Assembly: GCA_007131245.1 (NCBI GenBank)
Contig: SLQX01000016.1
Coordinates: 1-59,047, forward strand
Direction of reading: 5' to 3'
Source of the DNA: Bacteroidales bacterium
Lineage (GTDB): Bacteria > Bacteroidota > Bacteroidia > Bacteroidales > UBA7960
Length of the DNA: 59,047 bases
The stretch's first letter is position 1; each line of letters begins with the position of its first letter. The position numbers and the translations under genes are program-made. Below the pieces are notes generated by a model. The model did no database searches, had not been told where the DNA came from, and worked only from the letters and a program-made list of their open reading frames with translations. Below, piece after piece: positions 44,584 through 53,890 of this stretch.

Positions 44584-47500
44584 TCAAAGATTGAGCTTAT
44601 TAACCAGATTTGCAAAGTCGTTTTCTTTCACTGGTTTGGTAATATACTCATCCATACCCATGCTCATATATTTTTCTCTGTCACCTTCAAAGGCATTTGC
44701 ACTCAAACCAACTATGGGAGGAAGGTTGGTATATTTTTCTCTAAGGCGGTGAGTTGCTGCAATTCCATCCATCACAGGCATCTGAATATCCATCAGTACC
44801 AGGTCAAATTTGCCGGGCTCAAAGAATTCAAGCGCTTGTTGTCCGTTTTCAACGATATCCACCTTGTGGTTCTGAGAATGGAGAAGCAACTGAATAACTT
44901 TTTGATTGACTTTCTTATCTTCCACCAAAAGCACCCGCAGTGATTTTTCGCCAACAACCTCTTTAATGGGCTGTTTCAAGTCATCTTTTTTGGGCATGTC
45001 AACTTTTTTTGCCCTGAAGGTAAACCAAAAAGTACTTCCCTTGCCCGGTGTGCTTTTGAAATCAACATTACCTCCCAGTAATTTTGCAACCTCCCTGCAT
45101 ATGCTAAGCCCCAGGCCTGTACCTTCATGGGATCTATCATAAGTTTGCTCGGCCTGGTAAAAAGGTTGAAAAAGCTCTTTCTGCTTCTCCGGTGATATCC
45201 CTATTCCTGTATCAGATACAGAAACTTTAATGTAACAATAAGATTTTTGGGTTTCAATGGGTTGCTGAAAATCCATAGCAGATACATGGATATTAATTTT
45301 GCCTTTCGGGGTAAATTTCACCGCATTGGACAAAAGGTTACTGATAATTTGAAAAACCCGCTTATAATCACTTTGGATATATGGAGGCACATTTTGTTCA
45401 ATGGAGATATTCAAATGAATCTCTTTTTTGCTGATGGAAAAGAAGAGTTTTTCTGTTTCGCGAAAAAGCTTCTCAACAGCAAAAGCCTCCTCTTTGATAT
45501 TCACCTTGCCGGCCTCAATCTTTGAATAATCCAGCACCAGGTTAATGGTTTCCCGCAGGTTTTCTCCTGAATGTATGAGCGTATCCAAATAATCCGATTG
45601 CTCCGGTGTCAGGGATGTTTTCTTCATAACCTCTGCCATACCCAATATCCCGGTCAGCGGAGTGCGTATTTCGTGGCTCATATTGGCAAGAAAATTTTTT
45701 TTGAACTCCAGGGATTTTTGGGCAACCTCAACCTCCTTTTGTAATAATAATTCTTCCTGCTTTTTTTCTTCCCGTTTTCGGGCTTGCTCCTTTCGCCAAA
45801 AATATACCCAAAAAGAAAACCCCAGCAGGAGAATAAAATACATGGCCAAAGCCCAGGTACTACTCCACCAGGGCCTTTTTATGGTAAAGGGAAACTGCAG
45901 TTCCTCACTCGTAGAACCGTCAATATTCACCGCTTTCACTCTAAAATTGTAGCTGCCAGGTGAAAGATTGCCGTAAAATGCTCTTCTGGCATAAGTAACA
46001 TTGTTCCAGTCATTTTCAAAACCTTCCAGCTTGTAGGTATAGCCAACTTTGCCTTTGGCGGCAGGAGAGATCCCTACAAAGTTGAAACAAATATAATTGT
46101 TGTAATGGGCCAGGGTGAGATTATGTGGCAGTCCATACCATGGGGAGACTCCATCAAAATTAAAATTGCTGATTTCCATACCATTGGCTAATCGAAGCAA
46201 AGTATCCTGGTTATGATAAAACGCTAACCATGGTACAGATTCATTAAACAACCCCAAAGCCTGTATTTGTACTTCGGGAGCCTCTTCTGACAGGGGCAGC
46301 TTATGGGGGTTAAAAACCGTAAGAATATCATTGGAACCAATCCAAATGGTATTATCCGAAGCTTTGTACATAGCACTGGAGTTAACCCCTGTACCCATAA
46401 AGCCGTCATTACGGCTGTATGCTTTAAAAAATATCCCTTTGGAGTGAGCCCAGGAGGTAGTGTAATAATTTCCATTGCCCGATTTTTCTATATAGTCAGC
46501 ATCTAGAAATTGATTTAACCCCAGGCGTGTTCCTATCCATACATTCCTGTTGTTGTCCTCAATAAATGAATAAACAAAGTTATTGCTCAAACCATGTCGT
46601 TCAGTAAAGTGAAACAATCTATTCTCCTTTATCTTAATCAGACCACTTCCATACGTGCCAGCCCATATAGTGTTTTCACCATCAATAAACAACGACAAAT
46701 ACTCATTGGCAGGCAACCCCTCATTTTCTGTATAGTGAACAAACGAGTCCCCATCAAACATATTGATACCGCCTCTCCGCGTAGCAAACCACATATTGCC
46801 ACTTTGATCCTCTGCTATTTCCACAACATGATCGCTGGACAAACCCTGCTCGGTTGAATAATTTATGAAACGCTCACCATCAAAACAGAACACCCCATCT
46901 CCACCTGTGGCAAGCCATATATCCCCGTTACTGGATTGCTGAATGTGAAGAACTCTACTTGTGGCCAACAGAGCATCCCGGGGCGGAAGATAAAAATATC
47001 CGTCATCAAAAATGGCTAATCCATGATTCAAAAATCCCAGCCAAAGTTTGCCTGAATCCTCCTTAAACACGCTTCTTAGCCGGTTATCGGGCAAGCCATG
47101 CTCTGTGGTATACTGTAACAAATACCCTTTGTGCAATTTAAACAAACCCTGCGAATGGGATCCCAGCCAGGGATAATCACTATCCTCTGCTGCTGTGATT
47201 GACCGGATAAAACCATGGGGAAGTCCCTCATACTCACTATAATGACGAAAAACATCTCCCTGGTAATAGCCCAGTCCACCCCCATAGGTTCCAAACCATA
47301 AATTGCTGTTTTTATCCTCGGAAAGCACGGTAATAAAACTGTTTATCAATCCCTGGGCTTCTGTAAATGATGTAAAACTTTGCCCATCGTACCTGATAAT
47401 TCCGGCCTGCCGTGTACCAATCCAAACATCCCCCCCGGAACTGGTAAGCAGGCACAGTATATCATCATCAGGAAAACCTGCATTTTGTCCGTAATGTGTA

Positions 47501-48531
47501 AAAAAAACGCCATCAAAAGTCATCAGACCGCCGCCGTCGGTCCCTACCCACATAAGACCATTATCATCCTGGGCGAAATCAAGGATATAGTTACTACTTA
47601 GCCCCTGCTGGGTTGTATAATTGAAAAAATGCTCACCGTTAAATACCGATATACCGCCTCCTCGTGTACCCAACCAAATGTTTTGATCAGCATCTTCTTC
47701 TATGGTATAAACAACATCATGGGCCAACCCATGGTAACTGGTAAATTGAGTAAAAAGGTCCCCATCATGCCGAACCACACCACCCCCAAAGGTTCCCAGC
47801 CAGATGTTTCCCTGGGAGTCTTCAAAAATAGTCTCCACACTTGCTATGGGAAAACCTTGTTCTTCATCAAAGACAGAAAATTTTTTCCCATCGAAAATCA
47901 CCAGGCCGGATCTTCTGGTACCCATCCAAATCCTTCCATCATCGGTAGCATGAACCGTTAAAATATCGTTTTCAGGTAACCCTTGCTCGGTGGTATAATG
48001 ACTAAAAGTTGAACCATCAAATCTAATCAGCCCACCACCGTATGTTCCCAACCATAAATTCCCCATGGGATCCTCTGCAAGGGCACTGATATCATCATGG
48101 GCCAGTCCCTGGTGACGCGTATAAAAACCAAAGCTGTAAGAGTTTTCCGCTTTCAGGTAAGGATCTTTTGAAGTGGTAATAACAGGAAGGCCGGTCCTGA
48201 CAGTTTTGGGTGAAATTTCCACTGGAACAGGAGCTGTAAAACCCTGGGCAATTCGCACCCTTGCATCACCCGCACGGGTGACTTGTTTTGTTGCATCTAA
48301 AGTAACAGGTTCTTTTAAAGGAATGATTTGAGGATCAGCAGCAGTTACTTTTTCCAGCTGATTGGCTCTTAGCATGTATGAAGAGTCGGGTTCAGTGGCA
48401 GCGATAAGAGTACCTTCTATAGGCATGAAAGGGATAAGATGGCTATCCACTTCCTCTCTGTCATGAATAACCTCAGAACAAGCAGATAAAACCAATACAA
48501 TTACGGGGGCAAAAAAAAGCGATACTTTCAT
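44584..48531 (-). CDS. Hybrid sensor histidine kinase with double beta-propeller sensor and C-terminal receiver
   Basis: Two-component sensor of 1315 aa. A lipobox (VLVLSACSE, Cys18) is followed by about 120 residues without recognised motif and then about 14 two-component-regulator propeller repeats (W-[LMIVF]-G-T-x-GG type), enough for two seven-bladed propellers, to near residue 720. A Y_Y_Y domain (KAVNIDGSTSEE region) and one transmembrane helix near 890-905 come next; inside the cell are HisKA (NMSHEIRTPLTG, His near 951), HATPase (DTGIGISPEKQ; GTGLGLSICREV) and a receiver domain with Asp in VLMDIQMPVMDG near 1245. No HTH or other output domain follows the receiver, unlike classical HTCS regulators, so a separate phosphorelay partner is needed. 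In Bacteroidota such propeller sensors often detect glycans; the ligand here is unknown. Confidence 0.88.
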   Translation of the reverse strand: MKVSLFFAPVIVLVLSACSEVIHDREEVDSHLIPFMPIEGTLIAATEPDSSYMLRANQLEKVTAADPQIIPLKEPVTLDATKQVTRAGDARVRIAQGFTAPVPVEISPKTVRTGLPVITTSKDPYLKAENSYSFGFYTRHQGLAHDDISALAEDPMGNLWLGTYGGGLIRFDGSTFSHYTTEQGLPENDILTVHATDDGRIWMGTRRSGLVIFDGKKFSVFDEEQGFPIASVETIFEDSQGNIWLGTFGGGVVRHDGDLFTQFTSYHGLAHDVVYTIEEDADQNIWLGTRGGGISVFNGEHFFNYTTQQGLSSNYILDFAQDDNGLMWVGTDGGGLMTFDGVFFTHYGQNAGFPDDDILCLLTSSGGDVWIGTRQAGIIRYDGQSFTSFTEAQGLINSFITVLSEDKNSNLWFGTYGGGLGYYQGDVFRHYSEYEGLPHGFIRSITAAEDSDYPWLGSHSQGLFKLHKGYLLQYTTEHGLPDNRLRSVFKEDSGKLWLGFLNHGLAIFDDGYFYLPPRDALLATSRVLHIQQSSNGDIWLATGGDGVFCFDGERFINYSTEQGLSSDHVVEIAEDQSGNMWFATRRGGINMFDGDSFVHYTENEGLPANEYLSLFIDGENTIWAGTYGSGLIKIKENRLFHFTERHGLSNNFVYSFIEDNNRNVWIGTRLGLNQFLDADYIEKSGNGNYYTTSWAHSKGIFFKAYSRNDGFMGTGVNSSAMYKASDNTIWIGSNDILTVFNPHKLPLSEEAPEVQIQALGLFNESVPWLAFYHNQDTLLRLANGMEISNFNFDGVSPWYGLPHNLTLAHYNNYICFNFVGISPAAKGKVGYTYKLEGFENDWNNVTYARRAFYGNLSPGSYNFRVKAVNIDGSTSEELQFPFTIKRPWWSSTWALAMYFILLLGFSFWVYFWRKEQARKREEKKQEELLLQKEVEVAQKSLEFKKNFLANMSHEIRTPLTGILGMAEVMKKTSLTPEQSDYLDTLIHSGENLRETINLVLDYSKIEAGKVNIKEEAFAVEKLFRETEKLFFSISKKEIHLNISIEQNVPPYIQSDYKRVFQIISNLLSNAVKFTPKGKINIHVSAMDFQQPIETQKSYCYIKVSVSDTGIGISPEKQKELFQPFYQAEQTYDRSHEGTGLGLSICREVAKLLGGNVDFKSTPGKGSTFWFTFRAKKVDMPKKDDLKQPIKEVVGEKSLRVLLVEDKKVNQKVIQLLLHSQNHKVDIVENGQQALEFFEPGKFDLVLMDIQMPVMDGIAATHRLREKYTNLPPIVGLSANAFEGDREKYMSMGMDEYITKPVKENDFANLVNKLNL

Positions 48532-48743: not shown

Positions 48744-49439
48744 TCAACCCTCCTGCCAGCGGTGTTTGATAAACATGATTCCACCCACATCCATCAATGG
48801 GCCATTATACAATGGTATGATTTCAATTTCATGTTCCAAAGAACTTTTAAATTCCTCTCCTCCCGGTAAGTTGTTCAAACTACCACAAATATATAGTTTT
48901 TTCATCCAAAAACCACAACAGCCACCGAAAAAGCCATTGGCAACCCCCTTTAGCAAAACTTTTGAAGGCTCAACAAAAACACTTTCAATCTCCTGTTTTG
49001 TTAATACTTTTTCAATCCCTCTGTCTGAAGTAATCATTGTCTTTCCGGCCTGAAGGGTGTTGCACCGGACATAACCCTGCCGGCAATGAATCAATGGATA
49101 TCCGAGATTTTTAATAACAGGATCCGTATATTTTGTGTTATGGAGTATCCCCTGCGAGGTATAAAGCGCATTGTAATGAGCAGTAAAAGGGTATTTCTGC
49201 CCTACAATAAAGGCCCCTTCCTGAAAAGATATACCTTCCTCCTGCAGTAACTGTTTATACTTTCCTGGCAAATTAGGAGCCACAACCAACCCTCCCGGCC
49301 ATTGAAAAAAAAATATATCAGGGTGCCCGGAAATGGCATCATAGCAAATACCATCAGTGGCAAATTCAACGACTTTACCTACTTGTGACAATTTATATTT
49401 AGCCTTATCCGGCGCCTTTTGATCAATGATAATCAGCAT
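48744..49439 (-). CDS. DUF6873-like protein (GME-fold family)
   Basis: 231-residue cytoplasmic protein without signal peptide. I recognise it tentatively as the DUF6873 family, which is grouped with the guanidino-modifying enzyme (GME) fold of arginine deiminase and dimethylarginine dimethylaminohydrolase. Sequence blocks include FFFQWPGGLVVAP, the Cys/His-rich LIHCRQGYVRCN, MITSDRGIEKVL, and the near-C-terminal GFFGGCCGFW and GPLMDVGGIMFI. Candidate catalytic residues are His/Cys in HCRQGYVRC and the CC pair. It starts inside the radical SAM gene (17-bp overlap), indicating coupled expression and likely joint function. Reaction unknown. Confidence 0.6.
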   Translation of the reverse strand: MLIIIDQKAPDKAKYKLSQVGKVVEFATDGICYDAISGHPDIFFFQWPGGLVVAPNLPGKYKQLLQEEGISFQEGAFIVGQKYPFTAHYNALYTSQGILHNTKYTDPVIKNLGYPLIHCRQGYVRCNTLQAGKTMITSDRGIEKVLTKQEIESVFVEPSKVLLKGVANGFFGGCCGFWMKKLYICGSLNNLPGGEEFKSSLEHEIEIIPLYNGPLMDVGGIMFIKHRWQEG

Positions 49440-50427
49440 ACAATTGGTTTGGATTTACTTCCGTACGAGCCTGAAAAACAACTTTGTCAAATTGCCCTTC
49501 CAGCCTTTTGCGGTTGAGGGCTTTATGCCCTATTGCTGCATTTATATTGGATGGATGCACTGAAACTACAAGTAATTTACCTTTTTTTACAGCCACTGCA
49601 TTTGTGATTTTTTTCTCCCACACTTTGGTTAATACCAGCTCTCCAAAAGCCGGATGAAAAGGGCCTCCAAGCATTGTGTTTTTATCATAAAAGCCTTCTG
49701 AGGGGTGCAAACCCATTCTTAGTACCTTTATCTTCCGGTTTTCAAAGAACAAATATAGCTGAGCACACAGGTCTACAGCCTCTTCAAGAGATTGAGGCTG
49801 GTGGTTTTCAGCCTTGTATAGTCGGGCTAAGTGAGTATCTTTGATAACCAGTGTGGGGTAGATGCGAACGGTATCGGCCTTTAACTGTGTAATTTTTTTC
49901 GCTGTTTCCATGGCTTTATCGGGAGTATCTTTTGGCAATCCGGTCATCATCTGTAAACCCAACTCAAATCCCATTGCATTGATGGCTGCTGCGGCCTGCT
50001 CAACATCTGCCACCAAATGCCCCCTACCCGATAGTTCAAGTATTTCATCATCCAGGGATTGCGCTCCCAGCTCAATAGAACGCACACCATGGCTTTTCAG
50101 GTTTTCCAGAATTTTTGCTGAAATATAATCGGGGCGGGTAGATAATCTTATACCCTTTACCTTTTGGGAAGCAATATAAGGCTCGACCAGAGACAAATAC
50201 TGGTTCTGTTTTTCCATATCTAACCCCGTAAAGCTTCCTCCAAAAAAAGCCACTTCTACAAAGCTTTTTTGCCATGGTATGGTTGACAGGTAGCTTTCGA
50301 TGGTCTTGATAACATCCTGGCTTTGGGGTAAAGCAAGTTTACCGGTAATGTTATACTGATTACAATATACACAGCGAAAAGGACAGGCCAATTCCGGAAT
50401 AAATATGGGAATATTAAAATATCGCAA
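49423..50427 (-). CDS. Elp3-like radical SAM protein
   Basis: Radical SAM enzyme with the 4Fe-4S motif C-x3-C-x2-C in ACPFRCVYCN near residue 15, followed by the GGSFTGL and RLSTRPDYI (GGE-like and SAM-contact) segments and IELGAQSLDD. This order resembles Elp3 and HemN-type enzymes (COG1243-like), but there is no GNAT acetyltransferase domain and the last 100 residues (starting GLHPSEGFYDKNTM) are unlike SPASM or B12-binding regions. The only good start in the open frame is TTG at 50427, as a stop lies five codons upstream. A -7 element lies upstream. The downstream overlapping DUF6873-like gene is the likely functional partner. The substrate is not known. Confidence 0.78.
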   Translation of the reverse strand: MRYFNIPIFIPELACPFRCVYCNQYNITGKLALPQSQDVIKTIESYLSTIPWQKSFVEVAFFGGSFTGLDMEKQNQYLSLVEPYIASQKVKGIRLSTRPDYISAKILENLKSHGVRSIELGAQSLDDEILELSGRGHLVADVEQAAAAINAMGFELGLQMMTGLPKDTPDKAMETAKKITQLKADTVRIYPTLVIKDTHLARLYKAENHQPQSLEEAVDLCAQLYLFFENRKIKVLRMGLHPSEGFYDKNTMLGGPFHPAFGELVLTKVWEKKITNAVAVKKGKLLVVSVHPSNINAAIGHKALNRKRLEGQFDKVVFQARTEVNPNQLYADYH

Positions 50428-50600: not shown

Positions 50601-51494
50601 ATGGAAATCAGAATTGGAGAGTTAGCCGCCCTGGGTACAGCCTTTTGCTGGACCATCACTGCCATATCTTTTGAAACAGCCAGCCGTAAAGTAGGAAGTG
50701 TGGCAGTAAATATCATCAGGTTGGTTATGGCCCTTGCACTACTCAGTTTTTTTTCATGGCTCAACAGAGGCATGTTTTTCCCAACTGACGCCACTGCTTA
50801 TATGTGGTACTGGTTGTTACTTTCAGGAATTGTAGGTTTTGTAATTGGTGACCTTTTTCTTTTTGAGGCTTTTACCCTTATCGGCTCAAGACTCTCCATG
50901 CTGATAATGACCCTGGTGCCTCCTATCACAGCAACACTTGGCTGGTTTTTAATGAACGAACAAATGACCTGGCTCAACATTTTGGGTATGGCCATGACCA
51001 TATCAGGGATTGCACTGGTTATTTTTCAGAAGCATAACTCAAAAGGGGAAAAAATCAGCTATCCTGTAAAAGGTTTGCTGTTTGCTTTTCTGGGTGCAGC
51101 AGGACAAGCCACAGGCTATGTACTGAGCAAATACGGGATGGGTGATTTTGACCCTTTCGCAGCCACACAAATTAGGGTAATGGCAGGGATCTTTGGATTT
51201 ACTATCGTAGTGTCATTTTTCAAAAGATGGAGAGCGGTTTTTGGAGCCTTAAAACAAAGAAAACCCATGTTGCTTATGTTGCTTGGAGCTACCTTTGGCC
51301 CGTTTATAGGTGTTTCACTGTCCCTGTTGGCAGCCCAAAATACAACCACCGGTATTGCCTCTACCATCATGGCCATCACGCCAATCCTGATCATTCCACC
51401 AACCATGATTTTCTTTAAACAATCTGTAAGCTGGAAAGAAATTGTTGGGGCTATAATAAGTGTGGGTGGTGTATCGTTATTCTTTATCTTCTGA
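50601..51494 (+). CDS. EamA/DMT superfamily permease
   Basis: 297-residue membrane protein with ten predicted transmembrane helices arranged as two EamA repeats, the first from LAALGTAFCWTITAIS and the second from KGLLFAFLGAAGQATG. DMT family members export amino acids, nucleobase compounds or other metabolites; nothing here narrows that down. It is followed after 50 bases by the penicillin-binding protein gene on the same strand and may share its transcript, although that gene does not obviously depend on it. Confidence 0.88.
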   Translation: MEIRIGELAALGTAFCWTITAISFETASRKVGSVAVNIIRLVMALALLSFFSWLNRGMFFPTDATAYMWYWLLLSGIVGFVIGDLFLFEAFTLIGSRLSMLIMTLVPPITATLGWFLMNEQMTWLNILGMAMTISGIALVIFQKHNSKGEKISYPVKGLLFAFLGAAGQATGYVLSKYGMGDFDPFAATQIRVMAGIFGFTIVVSFFKRWRAVFGALKQRKPMLLMLLGATFGPFIGVSLSLLAAQNTTTGIASTIMAITPILIIPPTMIFFKQSVSWKEIVGAIISVGGVSLFFIF

Positions 51495-51544: not shown

Positions 51545-53890
51545 TTGAAAAAAAAACTCCAAATATATTTTGACCGAATATCCCAAATTTTTAAACCAGC
51601 CAACCCAAAAAAATTTTCCAGGCTGCTTCTGATTATAGTTGCATCGGGCATTTTATTAATGACTTTGCTTCTTTTTTCCTTTGTTTTAAGTGTTCGCATG
51701 GGTTTGTTTGGGACACTTCCCGATCACCAGGAACTTGCCTCCATAGAAAACCAGACATCCTCCGAAATCTATGCATCTGACGATGAATTACTGGGAAAAT
51801 ATTTCATTTATGACCGCTCTCAACTATTGCCTAATCAAGTCTCTGATAACCTTATCAATAGCCTCATAGCAACTGAGGATGCAAGGTTCTACAGCCATAA
51901 TGGCATCGATTACCGTAGTCTCATGCGTGTGTTTTACCGCACCCTTTTATTGAGGCAATCATCAGCAGGGGGTGGCAGCACTTTGAGCCAGCAGCTGGCA
52001 AAAAATCTTTATCCACGAAATGGAGACAGTTTTCTTTCTTTAGCTGTGGATAAAATTAGAGAAATGATTATTGCACGGCGGCTGGAGAGTATTTACTCCA
52101 AAAATGAAATATTGTTATTGTACCTGAATACCGTCTCCTTTGGTGAAAATGTATATGGTGTTACAGCTGCCTCTCTGCGCTTTTTCAACAAGAACCCCCG
52201 GGACTTAACTATAGAAGAAGCTGCCACACTTACAGGCATGTTAAAAGCCACTTCTTTTTACAATCCAAGACTTTTCCCGCAAAGAGCTCTTGACCGCAGA
52301 AACACAGTTATAGGCCAATTAAAAAGATATAAATACATAAACACTCATCAGGCCGATTCGATAAGGCAACTTCCCCTGGAGCTTGATTACACCCCTATGT
52401 CTCACCATCAGGGACCTGCACCCTATTTTAGAGAGTCAGCACGTACACATATTACCCGGTTATTGCATAAATACAACCAGGAAAACAATACCCAGTATAA
52501 CCTTTACACCGATGGACTAAAAATATACACCACCCTGGATTATAACCTGCAGCTCATTGCTGAAAAAGCCGTCGAAAAACAACTCCGGGAACAGCAACAG
52601 CGCATGAATGAGTATTATAAACGGTTATCCAGGCAAAAAGCCATGCCACTTCTACGGAAGTTAATGCTCCAAACCCAACGATACCAATCATTTCAAAAGA
52701 ATAATCTGGAGAGTGAGTCTGTTGAAGTACACTTTGACCAAGCCATTGCCATGGAATTTTACGAACCCGGAGGATCACAACGCCTTGAAATTTCACCGCT
52801 TGACTCCATCTTTTTATCTCAACAAGTAATCCACGCAGGTTTGGTATCGCTGGATCCCCGAAATGGTGCCATAAGAGCCTGGGTGGGTGGCAACAACATC
52901 AGTTTCTATCAGTATGATCATGTATTGGCCCAAAGGCAGGCTGGTTCTACATTTAAACCTCTGGTATATGCTACAGCTTTGGAGATGGGCATAGAGCCTT
53001 GTGAGTATGTAAGCAATGACTCCATCGTTTTTGAGGACAACGAAGGATGGAGCCCAGGCAATGTGGATGGTAATTATGATGGGTATTACAGTATGGCAGG
53101 AGCCCTCGCACATTCAGTAAACACCGTTTCTGCCCATTACATTAACCTCACAGGTATATTGCCTGTACTGGAAGTTGCACACAAAGCGGGCATCCACTCC
53201 CCCCTGCCACGTGTTCCTTCTATTGCACTAGGTACGGCCGATGTGAGCCTGCTGGAGATGACTTCTGCTTTCACCCCTTTTGTTAACAAAGGGAATTCTC
53301 AAAAACCCTTTTGGCTGTTGAAAATAGAGGATAAAAACGGTAAGGTAATTTACGATAACAGACCATCCCGTGAAACACCCGTGTTTTCAGAAAGTACTGC
53401 CTTAATGAGTCGCCAGATGCTTTCCTCTGTAGTAGATAGTGGTACAGCAGCCCAATTGCGCAACCGATTTGGCATTACAGATGCTTTGGCTGGTAAAACA
53501 GGGACCACCCAGCATGGTGCTGACACCTGGTTTGTTGGATTTAGCCCGGGCTTAATAACCGGAGTATGGACCGGAGTTGAAAACCCTGCTTTCGCTGGAA
53601 TTTATAAAACCCCACTCAGTTCTACCAATAGTGCTGTTCCGGTTTGGGGAGAGTATTACCGTATGATTTCTGAAAACACCCAAACCCGTGAATATAACAG
53701 GGGCTCTTTTACCCCACTGCCTGATTCATTGGCCATAAAACTTCAATGCAATATGTTTTTGGAAGAGCTACCCTCCCAAAGTTGGTGGGAAAAAATATTT
53801 TCCAGACCGGACGATGGTACTCCTGAGCCGAAACCCCGGGATGAGGAGCAACCAAGCCGTTTCCGCAGGTGGTTAGATAGGGTTTTCTGA
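51545..53890 (+). CDS. Class A penicillin-binding protein (PBP1a-type)
   Basis: Bifunctional peptidoglycan synthase. After a cytoplasmic tail and one transmembrane helix (LLLIIVASGILLMTLLLFSFV, about residues 28-50) comes the GT51 glycosyltransferase: EDARFYSHNGID, GGGSTLSQQLAKN and RRLESIYSKNEILLLYLN. The transpeptidase follows with the three active-site motifs SxxK (GSTFKPL), SxN (SVNTV) and KTG (GKTGTT). Length is 781 aa. The track start is TTG 51545, 50 bases after the permease; the in-frame KKKLQIYF segment that follows supports it. The 3' end is only 4 bases from the convergent Spy-like gene. Confidence 0.94.
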   Translation: MKKKLQIYFDRISQIFKPANPKKFSRLLLIIVASGILLMTLLLFSFVLSVRMGLFGTLPDHQELASIENQTSSEIYASDDELLGKYFIYDRSQLLPNQVSDNLINSLIATEDARFYSHNGIDYRSLMRVFYRTLLLRQSSAGGGSTLSQQLAKNLYPRNGDSFLSLAVDKIREMIIARRLESIYSKNEILLLYLNTVSFGENVYGVTAASLRFFNKNPRDLTIEEAATLTGMLKATSFYNPRLFPQRALDRRNTVIGQLKRYKYINTHQADSIRQLPLELDYTPMSHHQGPAPYFRESARTHITRLLHKYNQENNTQYNLYTDGLKIYTTLDYNLQLIAEKAVEKQLREQQQRMNEYYKRLSRQKAMPLLRKLMLQTQRYQSFQKNNLESESVEVHFDQAIAMEFYEPGGSQRLEISPLDSIFLSQQVIHAGLVSLDPRNGAIRAWVGGNNISFYQYDHVLAQRQAGSTFKPLVYATALEMGIEPCEYVSNDSIVFEDNEGWSPGNVDGNYDGYYSMAGALAHSVNTVSAHYINLTGILPVLEVAHKAGIHSPLPRVPSIALGTADVSLLEMTSAFTPFVNKGNSQKPFWLLKIEDKNGKVIYDNRPSRETPVFSESTALMSRQMLSSVVDSGTAAQLRNRFGITDALAGKTGTTQHGADTWFVGFSPGLITGVWTGVENPAFAGIYKTPLSSTNSAVPVWGEYYRMISENTQTREYNRGSFTPLPDSLAIKLQCNMFLEELPSQSWWEKIFSRPDDGTPEPKPRDEEQPSRFRRWLDRVF

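Follow-up and report, generated by a model that had tools for sequence, protein, structure and literature searches.

A conserved gene pair links an Elp3-like radical SAM protein to a predicted pentein of family DUF6873 in Bacteroidales

INTRODUCTION

What does an Elp3-like radical SAM protein do when its gene runs into that of a DUF6873 protein? The question is raised by a 59,047-nucleotide stretch of Bacteroidales DNA (assembly GCA_007131245.1, contig SLQX01000016.1), referred to below as the window. In Elp3, acetate is tunnelled from the acetyltransferase site to the radical SAM site, and the enzyme needs Glu207, Lys302, and Tyr304; the E207A variant is inactive and K302R nearly so (2026 study, PMC13315578). 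A preliminary description of the window proposed that the radical SAM protein lacks an acetyltransferase domain and that its neighbor resembles guanidino-modifying (GME) enzymes, the two being coupled in function. Here we ask what each protein is, how firmly the genes are tied together across genomes, and which substrate and division of labor would fit.

RESULTS

The overlapping genes and their surroundings

Both ORFs and their 17-bp overlap were found on the minus strand where the preliminary description had put them. The features used below are as follows.

49423..50427, minus strand: radical SAM gene, Elp3-like, 334 amino acids, TTG start (ORF with Pfam, NCBIfam, and PDB matches)
48744..49439, minus strand: DUF6873 gene, 231 amino acids, ATG start (PF21778; IF6/DDAH-like five-bladed pentein fold in the model)
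49423..49439, minus strand: 17-bp overlap of the radical SAM 3' end (protein ending in YADYH) with the DUF6873 5' end (protein starting with MLIIID)
50362..50385, minus strand: CX3CX2C motif of the radical SAM protein, Cys15/Cys19/Cys22, for the [4Fe-4S] cluster (from the sequence)
50140..50142, minus strand: radical SAM Ser96 codon, aligned with Glu207 of Elp3 (by profile, against the M. infernus protein)
49858..49866, minus strand: radical SAM Arg188-Ile189-Tyr190 codons, at the position of Elp3 Lys302-x-Tyr304 (profile alignment)
49468..49581, minus strand: C-terminal beta-alpha-alpha-beta unit of the radical SAM protein, residues 283 to 320, KH-like (DSSP of the model)
49317..49325, minus strand: DUF6873 His39-Pro40-Asp41 codons, GHPDIF motif, proposed general base (by comparison with HLDxxF, the His motif of GME enzymes)
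49062..49064, minus strand: DUF6873 Cys126 codon, QGYxRCN motif, proposed nucleophile (invariant in 80 of 80 sequences)
48789..48791, minus strand: DUF6873 Asp217 codon, GPLxDxGS motif, proposed triad acid (invariant in 80 of 80)

Downstream of the pair ends a gene for a 1,315-residue hybrid two-component sensor (44584-48531, minus strand) with propeller-type ligand-binding repeats and kinase and receiver domains. On the other side, and judged by eye from the sequence, a DMT/EamA-like transporter gene (50601-51494, plus strand) diverges from the pair and is followed by a gene for a penicillin-binding protein 1A-like protein with a TTG start (51545-53890, plus strand). No tRNA or RNA-modification gene marks the locus within the window.

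The radical SAM protein is neither Elp3 nor MnmL

Only two Pfam domains were found in the 334-residue protein, Radical_SAM (PF04055, E value 1e-17) and Radical_SAM_C (PF16199, 6.6e-18); Pfam detected no acetyltransferase domain. The cluster motif and Foldseek matches to radical SAM structures place the protein in that superfamily, and the motif cysteines are kept in 62 of 63 relatives, the remaining one having a gap. Elp3 enzymes are the closest solved structures, both in sequence and in the fold of an AlphaFold model (mean pLDDT, 90.8), so that the first view of an Elp3-like protein without an acetyltransferase holds. Like Elp3 (TIGR01211; tRNA U34 carboxymethylation), the core carries TRPD, ELG(A/V)Q, RGH, and YP motifs; unlike Elp3, the protein has neither the GNAT domain nor the Elp3-type N-terminal extension, and its partner is a pentein. 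It is not a member of the Elp3 family, scoring 97.3 bits against a curated cut-off of 350, nor of the MnmL/YtqA/YhcC family (TIGR01212), where it reaches 88.2 bits against 180.

The acetate site of Elp3 is changed as well. Two of its three essential residues are replaced, Glu207 by Ser96 and Lys302 by Arg188, while Tyr304 is retained as Tyr190, and each of the three is invariant in 63 of 63 relatives; the Glu207 placement follows our own numbering of a printed alignment, in which all three residues agree with a single offset of 16. Arg188 is thus the very change, K302R, that nearly abolishes Elp3 activity. Since two essential residues are replaced and the acetyltransferase is absent, the radical substrate is probably something other than acetate.

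MnmL shares the Radical_SAM_C architecture and a similar length, and an MnmL-like protein of Acetoanaerobium also has Ser at the Glu207 position, although it has Lys-x-His where the radical SAM protein has Arg-x-Tyr. The genome studied here encodes its own true MnmL in a separate gene (G000:C183:4836-5744), and MnmL shows no association with DUF6873. We also asked whether the pair could replace MnmL and rejected this, as MnmL, scored by TIGR01212, is nearly universal in the order. These observations bear on the reading in which the pair is a variant of a known wobble-uridine pathway, Elp3/cm5U or MnmL, carrying out a known reaction. Elp3 and MnmL/YtqA are indeed the closest families, but scores far under both cut-offs, the resident MnmL, the missing acetyltransferase, and the invariant Ser and Arg in place of E207 and K302 make it very unlikely.

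The C terminus of the radical SAM protein looks KH-like

In the model, DSSP assigns a beta-alpha-alpha-beta arrangement to the final 50 residues, with Gly300 and Asn305, both invariant, in the loop joining the helices, a further point of difference from Elp3. The loop reads Gly300-x-x-(Ala/Ser/Gly) and falls in register with the GXXG of the RpsC and Era KH domains, a weak match with an hhalign probability of at most 3%. The sole recurrent Pfam match was KH_2, in 3 of 26 members (best E value, 0.0087); KH_1 was found in 1 of the 26. On this basis the modelled C terminus looks KH-like, and we do not call it a KH domain.

DUF6873 is modelled as a pentein with an invariant Cys/His/Asp set

The downstream protein matches PF21778 over its full length (174.6 bits against a gathering cut-off of 27; E value 2.5e-51), and its model is confident (pLDDT, 96.3; pTM, 0.91). 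A Foldseek search of the PDB with this model gave 46 matches at E values of 1e-3 or lower (E values from 1.7e-5 to 1e-3, TM scores of only about 0.5), and among the 50 matches listed all were penteins: IF6, DDAH, deiminase, amidinotransferase, and RESC5. IF6 ranked first, followed by DDAH, agmatine deiminase, AGAT, and the trypanosome protein RESC5. The GME-like fold suggested earlier is therefore borne out by the model, which predicts the five-bladed beta/alpha propeller of the GME/pentein fold.

The proposal that the protein is rich in conserved cysteines did not survive alignment. The residues invariant in 80 DUF6873 sequences are His39, Pro40, Asp41, Asn90, Gln121, Cys126, Ser138, Gly173, Asp217, and Gly219; Cys126 is the only cysteine among them, and Cys174 and Cys175 vary. 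His39, Cys126, and Asp217 stand where repeats A, C, and E begin, and recur at matching places in two distant copies of clostridial type (Acetoanaerobium and MT836776), in both of which Arg125 is replaced by Lys.

DUF6873 thus resembles the GME penteins (DDAH, arginine deiminase, agmatine deiminase, and AGAT) in its five-bladed fold and in having an invariant Cys, His, and acid at repeat starts in the right cyclic order; it differs in being smaller, in a circularly shifted chain order, and in showing no significant sequence similarity to them. Read circularly, Asp-His-x-Cys reproduces the GME triad as it runs through repeats 2-3-4-5, the triad residues of the known enzymes being those that we take from general knowledge of the family and from printed arginine deiminase alignments. 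The active site would then be circularly permuted relative to those of DDAH and arginine deiminase.

Profile comparisons gave mixed results for this permuted register. Comparison by hhalign with arginine deiminase and AGAT-like profiles gave about 1% probability, and profile-profile comparison did not establish GME membership: the native profile, a doubled one, and five permutations were all nonsignificant. The native profile had no matches in the PDB. A rearranged profile had DDAH-1 as its sole match in the whole PDB, at a nonsignificant E value of 1.6, in an alignment that laid Asp217 on the DGGDVLF motif containing the DDAH-1 triad acid. The predicted register was the best of five against the AGAT-like (rank 10 of 120) and arginine deiminase (rank 2 of 120) profiles and was not the best against a single DDAH-like sequence. 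Judged from these sequence patterns, DUF6873 is probably catalytic, with a predicted thiol hydrolase or transferase activity.

Elsewhere in the phylum, 304-residue GME enzymes were seen in Bacteroidota genomes G053 and G036 (L239:204-1115 and L240), with EGGD, HLDCTF, and GGLLRCST motifs. They are related to arginine deiminase, though much shorter, and occur in 11 of 118 phylum genomes.

A different role for DUF6873 is that of a noncatalytic pentein which positions RNA or the ribosome for the radical SAM protein, all chemistry being left to the latter. IF6 and MRB11870 (RESC5), a protein of kinetoplastid RNA editing, are noncatalytic penteins (PMC3820961). IF6 and MRB11870, whose roles are related to RNA or the ribosome, are the best fold matches and of the same size, the top ones, IF6, being noncatalytic, and the 231 residues of DUF6873 lie near the minimal size for a pentein, that of IF6, catalytic members being usually larger (PMC3820961). 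DDAH-size penteins (255 to 285 residues) are nevertheless catalytic and match about equally well, and the invariance of His39, Cys126, and Asp217, in the 80 sequences as in the two distant copies, is not expected of a pure scaffold. DUF6873, moreover, is tied to a radical SAM enzyme, a further difference from IF6 and MRB11870. We regard the scaffold role as unlikely, though a serious alternative.

The two genes are gained and lost together

Among 294 genomes of the order, both genes are present in 78, the radical SAM gene alone in 10, DUF6873 alone in 2, and neither gene in 204 (Fisher P = 3e-57, a value that takes no account of relatedness among the genomes). An even sample of the phylum, which includes the genome studied here, has both genes in 4 of 198 genomes and neither in 194. 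As a negative control, the related radical SAM family TIGR01212 was above its cut-off in 274 of the 294 genomes, independently of DUF6873. Both genes were found in 38 families, at least 10 of which also have members without either, which indicates that the two have been gained or lost jointly many times.

The two genomes with DUF6873 alone (G431 and G301) are both soft cases. A damaged radical SAM gene remains in G431, whose contig agrees with L080 and L200 in length and position; by a search of G066, residues ∼33 to 124 and those beyond 237 are gone. This relic (L206, G066:C74:38500-41500; L080), in a genome with an intact DUF6873 gene, may be loss in progress or an assembly error. In G301 no radical SAM gene was found, and only 340 bases of contig remain upstream of DUF6873. 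The 10 genomes with the radical SAM gene alone belong to four families, and the genes beside it differ among the four, with no obvious replacement partner. Since the radical SAM gene occurs without DUF6873 and the reverse is almost never seen, we conclude that the pentein depends on the radical SAM protein.

This asymmetry bears on whether the radical SAM protein is a maturase that modifies DUF6873 itself, for example at Cys126 or Tyr123. A dedicated maturase would suit the gene overlap and the fusions described below, as well as the near absence of DUF6873 on its own. The genomes that keep the radical SAM gene alone would, however, hold a maturase with no target, and the protein lacks the SPASM/Twitch auxiliary-cluster domain usual in peptide-modifying radical SAM enzymes; we consider this reading improbable.

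Gene order, overlap, and natural fusions

The pair is adjacent in 64 of the 78 genomes with both genes, with DUF6873 downstream in every one. Of 59 relatives, 24 loci with DUF6873 were read, and in 23 the radical SAM gene immediately precedes DUF6873 in the same orientation or is fused to it; in the exception (G037) it is elsewhere in the genome. Among 92 distinct DUF6873 sequences, 64 were adjacent and unfused, and 54 of these share the exact 17-bp overlap. Another 27 were not adjacent to the radical SAM gene, which counts against a two-part system. When 15 nonadjacent cases in whole cellular genomes or chromosome-size records were checked, a complete or split radical SAM gene was found elsewhere in 14, and the remaining record (G066) held only a damaged relic. 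Loss of linkage across genomes would have spoken against the pair; the linkage holds.

In six genomes of two families the two proteins are encoded in a single reading frame of 574 to 659 codons (G039, G363, G450, and G518 in family f6; G340 and G501 in family f136). The linkers differ between the two families, so fusion probably arose twice. In the fused forms DUF6873 takes the C-terminal place that the acetyltransferase occupies in Elp3, so that the two-module plan of Elp3, with the second active site C-terminal, is kept. One fusion (L196, G450:C22) carries, within the radical SAM domain, an insert of ∼100 residues that includes repeats (SGWSRLRSTTGN, RWSSGAD), and L002 has another insert near that position.

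Co-occurrence (78 genomes with both against 12 discordant among 294), joint loss, overlap, and fusion all bear out the earlier suggestion that the two proteins are coupled. A functional link is near certain, and the two very probably form one modification machine.

The neighborhood did not reveal a substrate, as the genes between separated or unlinked pairs do not recur; by eye they encode a methyltransferase-like membrane protein, a phosphatase-like protein, and an SDR oxidoreductase, on the opposite strand. In the Acetoanaerobium record (Bacillota), DUF6873 and a radical SAM homologue of 41% identity lie far apart, the latter between rnc and smc. Mobility on phages or plasmids was considered and rejected: no viral contig was found, and one of three records from a plasmid collection is a 2.6-Mb chromosome-sized replicon. 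A record labelled "Bacteriophage sp." (L108, MT836776.1) has radA, DUF6873, and ethanolamine-utilization-like genes and is evidently a bacterial contig.

These loci also speak to a reading in which the substrate is a free small molecule, such as an arginine-derived guanidino compound; DUF6873 would be an ordinary GME enzyme, and the radical SAM protein would make or change its substrate. Such chemistry is typical of GME enzymes, the fold is theirs, agmatine deiminase, AGAT, and DDAH are among the matches, and in a single case, Persicobacter, an arginine decarboxylase gene is found two genes away from DUF6873. Across the loci read, however, no transporter, biosynthetic, or catabolic gene is repeatedly found within or next to the pairs, and the KH-like domain and the kinship with Elp3 point to RNA instead. 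We think a free small molecule rather unlikely.

DISCUSSION

The radical SAM and DUF6873 genes form a real, conserved two-gene system, whose parts come from known superfamilies and whose combination fits neither Elp3 nor MnmL. In the literature that we searched, which held few subscription papers, DUF6873 is named in no paper and we found no description of the pair; descriptions elsewhere are possible.

Our preferred reading, to which we give a probability of roughly 40%, is a two-part system in which an Elp3-type radical SAM protein acts on RNA and a thiol pentein, DUF6873, works only with it. RNA is favored as the substrate, ahead of a peptide or a small molecule, because of the KH-like end, the tRNA roles of Elp3 and MnmL, and the location of the clostridial homologue between rnc and smc, indications that are indirect and not decisive. 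The radical SAM protein, through its KH-like C terminus, would bind RNA, most likely tRNA, split SAM to give the 5'-deoxyadenosyl radical, and form or modify a carbon substituent of a base. Its Ser96, Arg188, and Tyr190 may represent a re-tuned form of the Elp3 acetate site. In DUF6873, Cys126, His39, and Asp217 would form the thiol hydrolase or transferase site. The pentein might act upstream, freeing a small donor beside the radical SAM site in the role that the acetyltransferase has in Elp3, or downstream, where it would trim, exchange, or finish the group installed by the radical SAM protein. As the radical SAM protein can stand alone and DUF6873 hardly ever does, the former would make the key product and the latter would serve it.

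A narrower proposal takes the upstream option further: the pair would be a second two-module machine of the Elp3 type, in which a small molecule released by the pentein at a permuted GME site replaces acetate, leading to hypermodification of tRNA or rRNA. In this full form we hold the proposal to be tentative and rather doubtful.

The pair places DUF6873 in a function-defining context and does the same for a third branch within the Elp3/MnmL radical SAM group. It is also directly testable, since both proteins are small, single-chain fusions exist in nature, and the residues to mutate are clear. If RNA is modified, the pair would be a lead to a new nucleoside in clostridia and in anaerobic Bacteroidota, and Elp3's plan of two active sites would have been rebuilt with a different second module.
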